Positions 23,040-28,791 of a stretch of 64,000 bases of DNA are shown here, one piece after another. The position numbers were made by a program, and so were the translations under genes. Where the stretch lies: assembly GCF_003390325.1 (NCBI RefSeq), contig NZ_QUOK01000003.1, positions 372,001-436,000 of the forward strand, read 5' to 3'. This stretch comes from Rhodohalobacter sp. SW132 (GTDB taxonomy: Bacteria; Bacteroidota; Rhodothermia; Balneolales; Balneolaceae). A model generated the notes under the pieces. That model did not search any database and had not been told where the DNA came from. It saw only the letters and a program-made list of their open reading frames with translations. Every line of letters begins with the position of its first letter. Within the stretch, counting starts at the first letter, position 1.

Positions 23040-24086
23040 TTAAATTGTTGCAAGGAGCTTATTACTAATTAAATCCGTGTAATTTTTTCTGTATTGAACT
23101 TTGTTTTCGATCGCCTGGATTACAGGGATTGAAAAATCCACACCTTGGAGTTCGCTTGCTCCCTGCAGTCCTCCGGGACTAAATACGTTAATCTCCATCA
23201 GTTTATCACCCACAATATCGAGCCCAACCATAAACATGCCGTCAAGCACAAGTTTCGGCCGAATGGTATCGACAATTTCGAGCATCGTATCATCAACTTT
23301 TACCTTCTCGGCACTTCCTCCGGCAGACATGTTGCTTCGAATATCCTCGCTTTCATTTACACGACGGATCGCCGCGTATTTCCCTTTCCATTTTAGCGCA
23401 TCACCATTTACCACGAATAACCGCACATCACCCTCAGTGGCTTTAGGTAAATATTCCTGGGCAATAACATATCCGTCGCGGCTAATCGCCTCGATCATCT
23501 GGTTCAGGTTTACTGCATCGTCCTCTTTTACCAGAAAAACACCTGCACCACCGGAGCCCTGGAGTGGCTTCATGATAATGTTGCCCCCCTGTTCTTTATG
23601 AAATTCCTGGATCTCTTTCGGGTCACGTGTAATGAGGGTATGCGGCCTCACGGATTCAGGAAAATGCTGGAAATACATCTTGTTAACGGCTTCTGACAGG
23701 CTATTGGGATCGTTCAGGACAATCACACCGTGCCTGAGGGCAAGCTGACCGAAAATCACAGATGCGTTTTTAGCCCATCCCCTGCCGACAGGTTCCGAGG
23801 CAGGATCATTGCGCAACAGAAGCACATCCAGGTTGTCAGCCGTTATCTTTTCTTCTATTGCACTATCATCCTTGATAGCCTTTATATAGGTCTTGGTGGT
23901 CTTATATTTATTGCCCGAAGCCCTTCTTGCTGTCGCCCCCATATGGCCGTCCGGATAGTACACCAGATCGGCAACACCGGTAAAATAAACTTCGTGGCCC
24001 AGGTTATGCATTTTCAGACCCAGGTAAACGGATGTATACTCCGCTATTTCGGTTTCAATATCATTTATGATCAGTGCGATTCTCAT
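23040..24086 (-). CDS. GshB-like ATP-grasp ligase
   Basis: A 348-residue ATP-grasp enzyme of the glutathione synthetase (GshB) type. Visible motifs are the N-terminal pre-ATP-grasp MRIALIINDIETE, the ATP-loop MKPLQGSGGAGVFLV (172-186), NMSAGGSA (252-259), and the Mg-binding GLDIVGDKLMEINVFSPGG (288-306; Glu298, Asn300). No glutamate-cysteine ligase gene is nearby, so glutathione is not an obvious product. It is the last gene of a minus-strand run, 47 bases after the QEGLA protein. Inference: it joins an amino acid or small peptide to a carboxylate, working with the neighbouring peptidase-like proteins. Confidence 0.88.
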   Translation of the reverse strand: MRIALIINDIETEIAEYTSVYLGLKMHNLGHEVYFTGVADLVYYPDGHMGATARRASGNKYKTTKTYIKAIKDDSAIEEKITADNLDVLLLRNDPASEPVGRGWAKNASVIFGQLALRHGVIVLNDPNSLSEAVNKMYFQHFPESVRPHTLITRDPKEIQEFHKEQGGNIIMKPLQGSGGAGVFLVKEDDAVNLNQMIEAISRDGYVIAQEYLPKATEGDVRLFVVNGDALKWKGKYAAIRRVNESEDIRSNMSAGGSAEKVKVDDTMLEIVDTIRPKLVLDGMFMVGLDIVGDKLMEINVFSPGGLQGASELQGVDFSIPVIQAIENKVQYRKNYTDLISNKLLATI

Positions 24087-24133
24087 TTAATTCTCTTTTA
24101 ATTTTATGATTGTGGATACATTCTTGAAATTAC

Positions 24134-26065
24134 TTATTCCTGCAAGAGGTCTAAGACGGATGATCCCTTTTTTAGCTGCTCAAGTTTCTCTCTGGCTCCG
24201 GGAAATTCCAGGTAGCGCGGACTCAGAGGTGCCGGACGCAAAATTCGACGATGCAGCAGCTCATTTATCAGCGGAAGATAGTCTTCACGAATTTTTCCGA
24301 TCAGGAGAGGCTGAAGCTCGTTGCCATTTTCCAGCCATTTAAGAACACGCATCAGTCCTTTCAGGTATATTGCGTCTTTGGTAAGTCCTCCCCCGCGGTA
24401 CACGCGCATTGTGATGGTGAATGCCTCCCGGGCATCGAACTCGTGATCTTCATGCAGAATATGAAACGATTCGACAAAATCAGCCCCGCGCATGATGGCC
24501 TGAACGGTAATTACCCTTGCTGCCAGAAGCCGAAGACGGCTCGGCAGCAGCCCCCCGACCAGGTATTCACTGAGCACCGCGAGGCCTTCCTGCAGCTCTT
24601 CATATCGGGGCAGCCCGCAATAGAGCAGTTTGAGCGGCTGGGCTTTCCCATTGTAATAGGTGAGGATGTGAGTACCCACTTCATGCTGTATCAATGCCTC
24701 TGCCCGCGCAGTTGAGATGCGGGCATCCGTCCCTATATGCAAATTTCCATTCGAAACGAGTAGCCCGGCGATATCATCCTGAACACACACCCTGGCATCA
24801 ATGGGTTCATACTGAGTATGATAGAAATCGATCTCTTTTCGGGCCATTTCGGCAAAATCATCCGGCGATATCATGTTTTGCTCGCTGCTGTCTGAATTCG
24901 GGGAAATGGCCGACAGCAAATCCGCAGCAAGGTTGGTCACCGATTCTTCAAGCGGACCGTAATATTGCATGCTTCCCGGCATGAACTCAGGCTTTCCGCG
25001 TTCTGTGAGCAGAGTCAGCATTTTATCGAGTTCGCTCCGTTTTTCCCGAAACATAAACTCCAGAGTTGGGTCTTCAACGCGTTCAATAGATAAATTATAC
25101 AGCTCGCGTTTGAGGATCTCCGGGTCTTCCGACATCAGCCTGTAATGAAACAGAGGTGTTTTTTTGAAATGATTGCTCTTGAAATACGACCAGGCTTCAT
25201 GAATATTTATGGGTGTAACCAATTGCAGAAAACTGAAACTGTCATCAATTCGGGCCAGATCAATATCTATTTCACGGGCCGGGCGAGTCATTAGTTGTCG
25301 TCCCAGCATTTGAAAATGAGAAACATCCAGATTCGTTTGGATTCTGACAAATTCAAAAAATGTACGGTTTAATGCCTTTGAGAGCTCTCGTGCCATTTTT
25401 CTGAGCAAAAGAGGATATGCTCTTCCGCTTTCGGAATTGATGTAAAACGGACGAATTTCCAACCCGATCAGCAGGGCCCCCATCTCTTTTAGATCATCCG
25501 CTTCCAGTAACTGCATCAGTCCGGGGGGATGGCGGTCATCCAGAGATATTTCTGCAGTTGCATTCTGATGTCCAATCAGGATTTTCTCCAGGTCTTTTTT
25601 CAGGTAGCTTACACTTGAATAGGCCACCTCGCGTGGTGCCCGGATATGAAAGTCTGCAGCAGGATCGGATTTTGTTGAAGGACGACCTGATTCTGCATCA
25701 TCCTCTTGAACCGTATCTCCGGATTTGAATGTGGGCTGTTCCGGCCAAATTTCAACAATCAGAAATGCTCCACTTTTTTTGGAAATTGTTTTTGCGATCG
25801 CACGCACGAGCGCCTTCAGATCTTCAAGCTTGCCATCGGCTGGTGCAATCAGAAAGGATGTCTGGGATCGCACCAACAGCCTGACCGCCCTGTTATCCCC
25901 ATCCTGCGGTTTCCGAAATACTACCAGAAAGGGTAAGGGGCGATCGAAGTGAAGCATTCCGCCGTCAGGCAGTTCCATTCGGACCTGCTCTCCTTCTTTA
26001 AGCTTTTGAGTCACATCCGCGATCACCTCTTCAAATGGTTCACTTACGACCTGGCTTTTTTTCAT
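24134..26065 (-). CDS. QEGLA-motif (DUF1704, MATCAP-like) putative metallopeptidase
   Basis: A 643-residue protein of the bacterial family often labelled flavohemoglobin expression-modulating QEGLA protein. The zinc-peptidase signature HEVGTH is at 461-466, and QEGLAVLSE (492-500) supplies the third ligand region. In eukaryotes the same DUF1704 fold forms the MATCAP enzymes, which remove the C-terminal tyrosine of tubulin. The N-terminal half (1-390) is an extra domain of unknown role. No signal peptide is seen, so it is cytoplasmic. Its ATG overlaps the stop of the amidohydrolase-like gene by one base, indicating tight coupling. The QEGLA function in bacteria is not established. Confidence 0.88.
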   Translation of the reverse strand: MKKSQVVSEPFEEVIADVTQKLKEGEQVRMELPDGGMLHFDRPLPFLVVFRKPQDGDNRAVRLLVRSQTSFLIAPADGKLEDLKALVRAIAKTISKKSGAFLIVEIWPEQPTFKSGDTVQEDDAESGRPSTKSDPAADFHIRAPREVAYSSVSYLKKDLEKILIGHQNATAEISLDDRHPPGLMQLLEADDLKEMGALLIGLEIRPFYINSESGRAYPLLLRKMARELSKALNRTFFEFVRIQTNLDVSHFQMLGRQLMTRPAREIDIDLARIDDSFSFLQLVTPINIHEAWSYFKSNHFKKTPLFHYRLMSEDPEILKRELYNLSIERVEDPTLEFMFREKRSELDKMLTLLTERGKPEFMPGSMQYYGPLEESVTNLAADLLSAISPNSDSSEQNMISPDDFAEMARKEIDFYHTQYEPIDARVCVQDDIAGLLVSNGNLHIGTDARISTARAEALIQHEVGTHILTYYNGKAQPLKLLYCGLPRYEELQEGLAVLSEYLVGGLLPSRLRLLAARVITVQAIMRGADFVESFHILHEDHEFDAREAFTITMRVYRGGGLTKDAIYLKGLMRVLKWLENGNELQPLLIGKIREDYLPLINELLHRRILRPAPLSPRYLEFPGAREKLEQLKKGSSVLDLLQE

Positions 26066-26871
26066 TACAGACCACCCGCGTGCACTTCTGTAATTTGTTT
26101 ACTATGAGTCAGCAATCCCGGAAGTGTAGATTTAAGAGCATTGTAAAGCGCGTTGAATTTCACCGGGTCGAGTTCATGAGTCCATTCATTCATAAAGATT
26201 TTTTTAAACTCAATAGCAATGGCGCAGCTCTGGTCGCCAAATTCCTGTTGTATCCAGCGTGAGAAATGGCCACCCTTAAAACGGATATTCTCACCCACCG
26301 TGAGGGGGCCACCCGGGTAATTGAACGTGCGAAGATCATTGGCAAGCCCGTCCACGACCGCCCCCCAGACATGCCTGTTCAGATTTTCCGTACCCAAATT
26401 TACATCGGGATTGCCGGCCGGATCAGCCGGTTCTGCATGCGGGCCCTCTCGCATATGATTGTAGCAGTGTATGTCGTAAACGATAACGTAACCATATTTC
26501 TGGATGATGCGGCCCAGAAATACTCTCGAATCTGCATAAAACCTGTCATACATGGCCAAAGATTTTTCTACCAATTCTTCCTCAGGATACTCTTTCCATA
26601 CATTGAGGCCCCACGCATCCTCTGGTTTACGGTACACAGCTAAACTGCGTTCACGGTTCAGGTCTACTTCGAACCGGGATTTCCTGACAATAATACGTGA
26701 CGGAACAATCGTGGTAAGTAAGTCTGTATGTGGATCTTCCTCGCGCAACCGCTCTGAATCAGTGAGGTTGTAGAGGGGTTTGAGCACGTTTCGCACATCA
26801 TGCCCGCTATGGAGTGCTACAGCCACAACAGGACCTTCTCCGGAATAAAATCTATATGATTCTCTGGACAT
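26065..26871 (-). CDS. N-formylglutamate amidohydrolase-like protein
   Basis: A 268-residue protein of the FGase/HutG-like family (zinc amidohydrolases related to carboxypeptidase-fold enzymes). Visible features are VALHSGHDV near residue 20, EEDPHTDLL (about 40-48), FEVDLNRER (about 66-74), IVYDIHCYNHM and IRFKGGHFSRWIQQEFG. No histidine-degradation genes are near, so hydrolysis of N-formylglutamate is doubtful; a glutamyl or aminoacyl amide in a peptide is equally possible. It is coupled to the QEGLA gene by a one-base overlap, a pairing I recall as recurrent in other bacteria (COG3930/COG3931). Confidence 0.87.
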   Translation of the reverse strand: MSRESYRFYSGEGPVVAVALHSGHDVRNVLKPLYNLTDSERLREEDPHTDLLTTIVPSRIIVRKSRFEVDLNRERSLAVYRKPEDAWGLNVWKEYPEEELVEKSLAMYDRFYADSRVFLGRIIQKYGYVIVYDIHCYNHMREGPHAEPADPAGNPDVNLGTENLNRHVWGAVVDGLANDLRTFNYPGGPLTVGENIRFKGGHFSRWIQQEFGDQSCAIAIEFKKIFMNEWTHELDPVKFNALYNALKSTLPGLLTHSKQITEVHAGGL

Positions 26872-27312: not shown

Positions 27313-28791
27313 TCATGACATACTCCCGCTATCCTCTCTTTCCGTCTTTTTCTTAACGTAGACTGAAACGTGCTCCCCATATTTTTCCCTCACAAAATCC
27401 GACCTGTAATCGGTTCCTTTTATCAGTCCGCGACAGTCATTTGCCCCGCACTTGCAGGAAAAAGGCTCCATGATCTCATTGCAGAACGTGGCATAGTCAA
27501 GAGTGATCTCCTCTCCGGCCCGGATTGATCTGCGGGCGGTCACATTCAATCCCGTCAGCCAGACATTGGGATCGCAGGAGTGATTTATTGGAGTCCACTC
27601 ATCGGGGTCCGGACTCCACATCACATAGATCTCGTCGCTAATCGGCCATGCATACTGCCTGAACCACCTCTTTTTTTCTTCACTCCAGTTGTTCATCACG
27701 TGTGAACGACTGACCAGGTGGTGTTTCTGTTCCTCATGTTCAAAAATGAGCTCATCCTTCAAAATATCCTTTGTGGCTACAATTCGATAACCATATTCGG
27801 GGTGAAATGTCCGCTCCCATGGTTTTTGGAAGACGCGATTCATGGCTGATTCAAGAATGAGTTCCACAAAATGTTCGTGGCCGCGTTCGTCATTCAAAAG
27901 AATGAGATCGGCGCTCCCTTCAGCTCCGGGAGGATAGAAGATTCCGCAGTTTGGGTTGATCTCAAGCATATAGGCCTCGTTATTTTCATTCACGCGCAAA
28001 TCGCACCGCCCGTAACCGGTTCCGTTTAATCCTTTAAACAGGCTTCGGGATGCATGCATCAATTGATCTGCAAGCGCTCTCTCTTCAACCGCCCTGGTTT
28101 TCATACCACTGTAGTTGATCCATTTCAGATCAAAATGCTTGAACCGTTCTCCCGGCGGAAACAGAAACTCAAGGGGTTCATAGGCTGCCGGATGATCCGG
28201 ATTATCGGGATTTTCAGCAACAAGAACCGTGAATTCGCGTCCTTCGATAAACTCTTCCACCATAGCTTGCCCAAACCGGTCGATCATGATCCGGGCCTGC
28301 TTGAGCAACTGTTCACGGTTTTCGACACGTGAGGATGACGTAAGGCCGATACTGCTGTAGCTGTTCGGATGTTTTACGATGAGCGGATATTGAAGATTGC
28401 GTGTTTCGGTTTTGAGATCATCCGGGTTAGTGATGATCACATGACCGGGAACCCTGACCCCGTAATACCGGCACACCATTTTCATCAGGTCGCGGGTTGG
28501 GTCGTAGAATGAGCTGCCGGCCCCGGTAAAGGGCACGTTAAACCGCTCCAGGGCCTGCACCACTTCAATCCCGGCCCGGTCCTCATCCCAGCTGCCGTCG
28601 CAAAGGTTTACGAAAACATCAAAACCCTGCGAGACCAGTTCCGTCACGCGGCGGATAGCCGTTTTTTTATGCAGAAAATGGTGCTCGATTTCATGTCCCT
28701 TAAAATATGACTCGGGTGAAGATGCCATGTCGTGGGATTTCATGGGTGAATCCGATGATTCATAGGCGCTTTCGAGAATGCATATTTTCAT
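27313..28791 (-). CDS. ATP-grasp ligase fused to a SET-domain methyltransferase
   Basis: A 492-residue two-domain protein. Residues 1-320 are a D-Ala-D-Ala-ligase-like ATP-grasp domain: IVKHPNSYSSIG (Lys140 for ATP), MVEEFIEGREF (177-187), and GRCDLRVNENNEAYMLEINP (261-280; Glu277 and Asn279 for Mg). Residues about 330-465 are a SET domain: YGYRIVATKDILKDELIFEH, NHSCDPNVW (403-411, the S-adenosylmethionine-pocket knot), AGEEITLDYATF (425-436, with the catalytic Tyr), and a post-SET-like CKCGANDCRG (446-455) with Cys437. The fusion implies that ligation and lysine or amine methylation act on the same substrate. The reading frame is continuous, so it is not an artefact of adjacent genes. Confidence 0.88.
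   Translation of the reverse strand: MKICILESAYESSDSPMKSHDMASSPESYFKGHEIEHHFLHKKTAIRRVTELVSQGFDVFVNLCDGSWDEDRAGIEVVQALERFNVPFTGAGSSFYDPTRDLMKMVCRYYGVRVPGHVIITNPDDLKTETRNLQYPLIVKHPNSYSSIGLTSSSRVENREQLLKQARIMIDRFGQAMVEEFIEGREFTVLVAENPDNPDHPAAYEPLEFLFPPGERFKHFDLKWINYSGMKTRAVEERALADQLMHASRSLFKGLNGTGYGRCDLRVNENNEAYMLEINPNCGIFYPPGAEGSADLILLNDERGHEHFVELILESAMNRVFQKPWERTFHPEYGYRIVATKDILKDELIFEHEEQKHHLVSRSHVMNNWSEEKKRWFRQYAWPISDEIYVMWSPDPDEWTPINHSCDPNVWLTGLNVTARRSIRAGEEITLDYATFCNEIMEPFSCKCGANDCRGLIKGTDYRSDFVREKYGEHVSVYVKKKTEREDSGSMS

Follow-up and report, generated by a model that had tools for sequence, protein, structure and literature searches.

SET domains are mainly regarded as protein lysine methyltransferases, and D-Ala-D-Ala ligase (Ddl) is an enzyme of cell-wall synthesis. 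Two other kinds of ligase, RimK and the tubulin-tyrosine ligases (TTL), add amino acids to the side chain or the end of a protein. The SET protein BurB of Burkholderia thailandensis (9l4t/9l4v) demonstrates that SET domains can act on free amino acids. According to the accessible part of its published description, BurB is a free-standing, 172-aa protein of the DMSP/malleicyprol pathway, which converts free methionine to S-methylmethionine, contacts SAM through an Arg of its gating loop, and loses its activity upon the Y124A substitution; no ATP-grasp partner is named in that part. The eukaryotic protein TTLL12, in which a SET-like domain is followed by a TTL (ATP-grasp-type) domain, has lost an important SET Asn as well as two ATP/Mg motifs, and no histone methylase activity was detected for it (PMC3520985). 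A survey of peptide pathways built on ATP-grasp enzymes, graspetides among them, describes such ligases together with transporters and methyltransferases that tailor the product, and mentions no SET domain (PMC8939145). In a literature search that had most subscription papers outside its reach, no bacterial fusion or cluster of ATP-grasp and SET was found, and TTLL12 was the sole precedent.

The window, which is the whole stretch of 64,000 nucleotides of Rhodohalobacter sp. SW132 DNA analysed here, contains a gene that joins two such domains (Table 1). An earlier note on this DNA had claimed a single uninterrupted frame at 27313-28791, which was borne out on the minus strand, while the plus-strand reading was dropped because its translation contains many stops throughout. 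Profile searches with Pfam placed two separate domains above curated cut-offs in the 492-aa protein, which were Dala_Dala_lig_C at residues 126-283 (E 5e-19) and SET (PF00856) at residues 334-433 (E 2e-11, 44.6 bits versus a gathering score of 22.4). The same fusion, with 37-56% identity over its full length, recurs at about 40 loci from a contig scan and at additional loci from whole-genome searches, and hence a chance or misassembled join is ruled out. These data confirm that the window gene encodes one protein joining a D-Ala-D-Ala-ligase-related enzyme to a SET methyltransferase. ATP-grasp ligases and SET methylases are each of known kinds, and the papers within reach of the search gave no description of the bacterial fusion, as the earlier note had supposed for this architecture in general; the supposition has to be narrowed for TTLL12, which anticipates the combination remotely and with the domain order reversed (PMC3520985). 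The ligase domain of TTLL12 is also of the TTL type, while that of the window protein is of the Ddl type.

Table 1. Position of the ATP-grasp-SET fusion gene, its domains and motifs, and the adjacent gene triad in the window
Feature	Coordinates	Strand	Basis
ATP-grasp-SET fusion gene	27313..28791	minus	one open frame, 492 aa, ATG start, stop codon 27313-27315
ATP-grasp domain, D-Ala-D-Ala-ligase fold, residues 1-324	27820..28791	minus	Pfam, AlphaFold2 model, structure match
Omega-loop motif FKHFDLKW, residues 217-224	28120..28143	minus	near-invariant in 38 sequences
E277-I-N279, metal-binding ATP-grasp motif	27955..27963	minus	aligned with DdlB E270/N272
SET + post-SET domain, residues 334-460	27412..27792	minus	Pfam, SET-only model, structure matches
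Arg336 replacing second Gly of SAM-binding GxG	27784..27786	minus	Gly in 35/38 aligned sequences
NHSCDPN, residues 403-409, SAM-binding and zinc-ligand motif	27565..27585	minus	H404, C406, P408 invariant
Tyr433, conserved SET active-site tyrosine	27493..27495	minus	invariant; aligned with Tyr of BurB TMDY
Post-SET knuckle C446-x-C448-x4-C453	27433..27456	minus	all three Cys invariant
Triad FGase - MATCAP/QEGLA - GshB-like (PRK12458)	23040-26871	minus	adjacent to fusion gene

The whole protein was modelled with AlphaFold2 using 38 homologues as input (mean pLDDT 87.9), and conservation was counted in an alignment of 38 family sequences. The ligase half (residues 1-324) was superimposed with VIA-align on DdlA (8evv) with a Z of 30.3 and an rmsd of 2.3 over 295 residues. 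It shares with Ddl (8evv, 4zqi) the ATP-grasp fold, the ATP and Mg motifs, and the catalytic Lys and Arg; the residues K140, E186, K223, R262, D264, E277, and N279 were kept in 36-38 of the 38 sequences, and of these K140, K223, R262, D264, E277, and N279 serve to bind ATP and handle phosphate. In the mapping onto DdlB, in which the correspondences to K144/S151/K215/Y216/R255/E270/N272 agree with an alignment to Yersinia Ddl, the ATP/Mg residues K144, E187, D257, E270, and N272 were matched by K140, E186, D264, E277, and N279. The earlier note had placed Lys140 and E277-I-N279 correctly, their counterparts in E. coli DdlB being K144, E270, and N272. The ATP site of the ligase half is complete. 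The picture is different for the residues of DdlB that recognize D-Ala, namely E15, S150, Y216, and S281. The position of E15, in a loosely aligned column, is mostly Ser across the family, that of S150 (window residue 146) varies freely, and those of Y216 and S281 are occupied by the invariant W224 and D295. Together with the invariant K223, which corresponds to DdlB K215, W224 lies in the omega loop, the residues 220-223 of which had low pLDDT in the model. Unlike Ddl, the family has its own set of sequences, FKHFDLKW, NPNC, and GSAD, at the D-Ala recognition positions. The family-wide replacement of these residues argues that the window fusion and its relatives are not D-Ala-D-Ala ligases.

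The structure search with the whole model listed only Ddl, and therefore the SET half was folded and searched alone (residues 318-492, pLDDT 88.3). The earlier note had considered that the C-terminal part might fail to match the SET fold, while in this search it matched SET structures. By Z score BurB (Z 11.4) and ASH1L (Z 11.2) were tied, while Foldseek placed ASH1L first (E 3e-8 versus 3e-7 for BurB). The single-sequence search of solved structures gave BurB as the best match (E 2e-9, versus 8e-7 for ASH1L), and a profile search with this domain, SET1, put BurB and MLL1 level. The SET tree was built on too few alignment columns to tell whether SET1 is nearer to BurB or to the histone methylases. 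The SET core, the NHSCDPN motif, the catalytic Tyr, and the post-SET CxCx4C are shared with MLL1/KMT2A and ASH1L, while the window SET differs from them by a shorter loop after NHSCDPN, the fusion to a ligase, and its bacterial host. The counterpart of Tyr433, which ends the GEEITLDY motif (residues 426-433), is Y124 in the numbering of the BurB paper. The description of the SET core as complete-looking in the earlier note is correct for NHSCDPN, GEEITLDY, and the post-SET Cys, but not for the GxG motif, which reads G334-Y-R336 in the window protein. The same position is also altered in two other relatives, to Thr in L024 and to Phe in L033. Arg336 could weaken SAM binding in the window copy.

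To describe the spread of the family, the loci found in the contig scan (45, of which 40 have both domains and five only the ATP-grasp) were combined with those added by whole-genome searches. In total, about 49 different loci with the fusion were counted, belonging to no fewer than nine phyla of bacteria, with carriers in Chlorobiota, Acidobacteriota, Chloroflexota, Myxococcota, Planctomycetota, Gemmatimonadota, Methylomirabilota, Pseudomonadota, and Bacteroidota/Rhodothermota. The locus L029 comes from a record titled Klebsiella pneumoniae MAG and groups with the unclassified proteobacterium L036; this record is probably mislabelled. Among 59 close relatives of the window genome the fusion was present only in the window genome itself, while family carriers made up 16/345 genomes in its phylum, 9/98 in the class of Chlorobium ferrooxidans, 11/195 in the phylum of Hyalangium (nine being ATP-grasp only), and 8/347 in the phylum to which the Bryobacterales genome belongs (six being ATP-grasp only). 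Hence, the fusion is a conserved family, but it is accessory and patchy inside each phylum. In a quick ATP-grasp tree, which has some long branches, the phyla were interleaved, the fused architecture was the common state, and the SET-less members were scattered among the fused ones (6 changes versus a shuffle mean of 22). The interleaving of phyla and the scatter of SET-less members suggest that the fusion is old, that it was spread horizontally, and that SET was lost repeatedly. Clades with ATP-grasp only were found in large Myxococcota and Acidobacteriota genomes (L095-L103, L148-L153) with no SET gene detected nearby, so that the ligase apparently can function without SET.

At more than half of the fused loci a further SET is encoded. 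A second domain with a Y-P-S/A-T-E-W motif (SET2) is fused C-terminally at 12 of the about 49 loci, in proteins of 640-680 aa, and a further SET adjoins the fusion at 15 more, three of which (L015, L034, L094) have SETs that diverge more strongly or lie in a different orientation. At about 22 fused loci the inspected stretch contained no second SET, and thus the module is not obligatory. The best match of SET2 among solved structures was by far BurB (E 5e-14), followed by histone methylases (4e-6), and the SET2 of L141 is 44% identical to BurB over 82 columns. In Chlorobium the gene order is SET2, fusion, ABC exporter, and small SET; three of the four SET matches of this genome lie in the fusion cluster, and the chance of two of three other SETs falling within 2 kb is about 8e-6. 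A free-standing SET gene is also located directly upstream of the ATP-grasp-only relative L098. In L027:6750-9920 and L030:6750-9920 a copy of the fusion of about 430 aa lies directly upstream of a 640-aa one as a tandem duplicate, and a small SET gene is located further upstream. The genes in high-GC loci were called by a codon-usage caller, under which a 696-aa antisense frame at L034 was replaced as a shadow frame.

A second Ddl-like ATP-grasp gene (ATP-grasp2) adjoins the fusion at L141, L142, L144, and L145, and L042 has two copies of it. In the phylum, ATP-grasp2 was found in 5 of about 340 genomes, and these coincide exactly with the genomes whose fusion belongs to the Bacteroidota clade; the containment of all five within the 16 fusion carriers has a p near 1e-7 when kinship is ignored, four of the five genomes belonging to one family. 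In one of the five, the genome G549, ATP-grasp2 and the fusion are on different contigs, and ATP-grasp2 is there paired with a SET2 (L154:8695-10097). Full-length ABC exporters adjoin family loci in Chlorobium, Schlesneria (L020), and Bryobacterales (L038), while the one at L039 is split or partial. In two Bacteroidota loci a free-standing exporter membrane domain (PF13748) is encoded (L141:7384-8196 and L144:9973-10800), with no ATP-binding domain seen beside it. At L039:5611-9530, where an ABC transporter is upstream, the fusion is frameshifted in the assembly and lies between cupin/JmjC-like and LicD-family genes, which possibly provide extra tailoring steps.

In the window genome a second SET gene was not found, and the only match to ATP-grasp2 was the fusion itself, so that the fused core was all that could be detected in this organism. 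Beside the window gene only unconvincing short ORFs were seen, none of which was recognized as a candidate RiPP precursor-peptide gene. The Ddl type of the ligase sets the locus apart from graspetides. A role in anti-phage defence was rejected because PADLOC gave no defence-model match for the fusion or its neighbours.

These data lead us to favor, at slightly better than an even chance, a bifunctional ligase-methyltransferase which uses a Ddl-type ATP-grasp and a SET domain to make a small methylated peptide-like metabolite. The N-terminal ATP-grasp would activate a carboxylate as an acyl phosphate at the expense of ATP and couple it to an amine, giving a peptide-type bond between two small molecules other than D-Ala and D-Ala. 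The C-terminal SET would use SAM to methylate an amine or a thioether, either on the same building block or on the product. Within the family, the fusion would thereby catalyze the central step of a short pathway, independent of NRPS, that leads to a small methylated metabolite resembling a di- or tripeptide. In many lineages this pathway would also use a second BurB-like SET, in some cases another ATP-grasp of the Ddl-like kind, and an ABC exporter, through which the product would leave where one is present. The action of both domains in one pathway is supported by their fusion and by the repeated gene clustering, and the relationship of the SETs to BurB favors a small molecule as the SET substrate, with greater confidence for SET2 than for SET1. 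The data establish both folds, the conservation of the catalytic sites and of the fusion across phyla, and the repeated clustering; from there we infer a small-molecule substrate, the action of both domains on one compound, its export, the identity of the bonds, and the methyl positions. The proposal in the earlier note is partly supported: that the protein ligates and methylates is a fair inference, given the real domains, their conserved catalytic residues, the fusion, and the clustering, while a single target of both activities is a possibility. The lysine-methylase role that it implied is disfavored, since the nearest characterized SETs include BurB and the genes of the clusters resemble those for making and exporting small molecules. 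What counts against the small-metabolite reading is that SET1, unlike SET2, is about equally close to BurB and MLL1/ASH1L, that the window genome has neither SET2 nor ATP-grasp2, that the second SET is missing at about 22 fused loci in the stretch covered, that Arg336 could impair SAM binding in this copy, and that the neighbouring exporters differ between lineages.

The equal similarity of SET1 to MLL1/ASH1L and to BurB, the classical role of SET domains on protein lysines, and the union of a SET-like domain with a TTL ligase-type domain in TTLL12 could also mean that the ATP-grasp adds an amino acid to the side chain or end of a protein, and SET methylates a lysine of the same protein. This is unlikely, if with an appreciable chance of being right, because the ligase is of the Ddl type, which is a small-molecule family, rather than of the RimK/TTL type, the neighbouring SET2 is BurB-like, and no conserved protein-partner gene was seen among the neighbours read at fusion loci. 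Hence, a histone-type methylase role of the fusion is not the best reading. It is also conceivable, at a rather low probability, that the ligase is active while the SET of the window copy has lost or reduced methyl transfer and is kept for binding or structure, the genome holding a remnant of the pathway. This would explain Arg336 at a position where most relatives have Gly, the missing SET2 and ATP-grasp2, and the outright loss of SET in several lineages, but the other conserved SET residues, including the active-site Tyr and the zinc ligands, are intact, L024 and L033 vary at the same position, and BurB contacts SAM with an Arg of its gating loop.

That the protein is a D-Ala-D-Ala (or D-Ala-D-Lac) ligase of the cell wall carrying an extra domain is very hard to reconcile with the data and has at most a slight chance: the family models and the fold do point to Ddl, but the equivalents of DdlB E15, Y216, and S281 are not conserved and the S150 position is free, the best score against the curated NCBIfam Ddl models was 85 bits versus a cut-off of 243, and the gene is accessory and patchily distributed. 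A housekeeping Ddl was rejected for the same loss of the recognition residues. The neighbouring triad offers yet another explanation, in which the fusion joins the FGase, MATCAP-QEGLA, and GshB genes in a glutathione-like peptide or peptide-tag pathway. The triad is adjacent to the fusion, on the same strand, and all these genes belong to amide-bond chemistry; its MATCAP gene, found in 14/296 genomes of the phylum, is like the fusion absent from nearly all close relatives. However, the triad is separated from the fusion by a gap of 441 bp, five other genomes (L170-L174) have it in the same order with no fusion beside it, one of which, of the same family as the window (78-88% identity), has no fusion anywhere, and the triad is missing from all the other fusion loci. 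The joint pathway is therefore quite improbable, a functional unit of fusion and triad was rejected, and the triad genes are neighbours of the fusion. As a ligase and a carboxypeptidase, the triad is reminiscent of the eukaryotic TTL/MATCAP pair.

The fusion, the SETs, the second ligase, and the exporter suggest a so far undescribed way of making small methylated peptides. A broader proposal, which we hold only tentatively and consider possible rather than probable, is that the fusion family forms the core of a new and widespread kind of minimal biosynthetic system of freshwater, soil, and subsurface bacteria, in which Ddl-type ligases, dedicated BurB-like SETs acting on small molecules, and export would yield methylated di- and tripeptides, perhaps of a sulfonium or betaine type, that are secreted. 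If this is true, bacterial SET domains would recur as enzymes that tailor small molecules, and the fusion family would point to unknown methylated peptides across many phyla.
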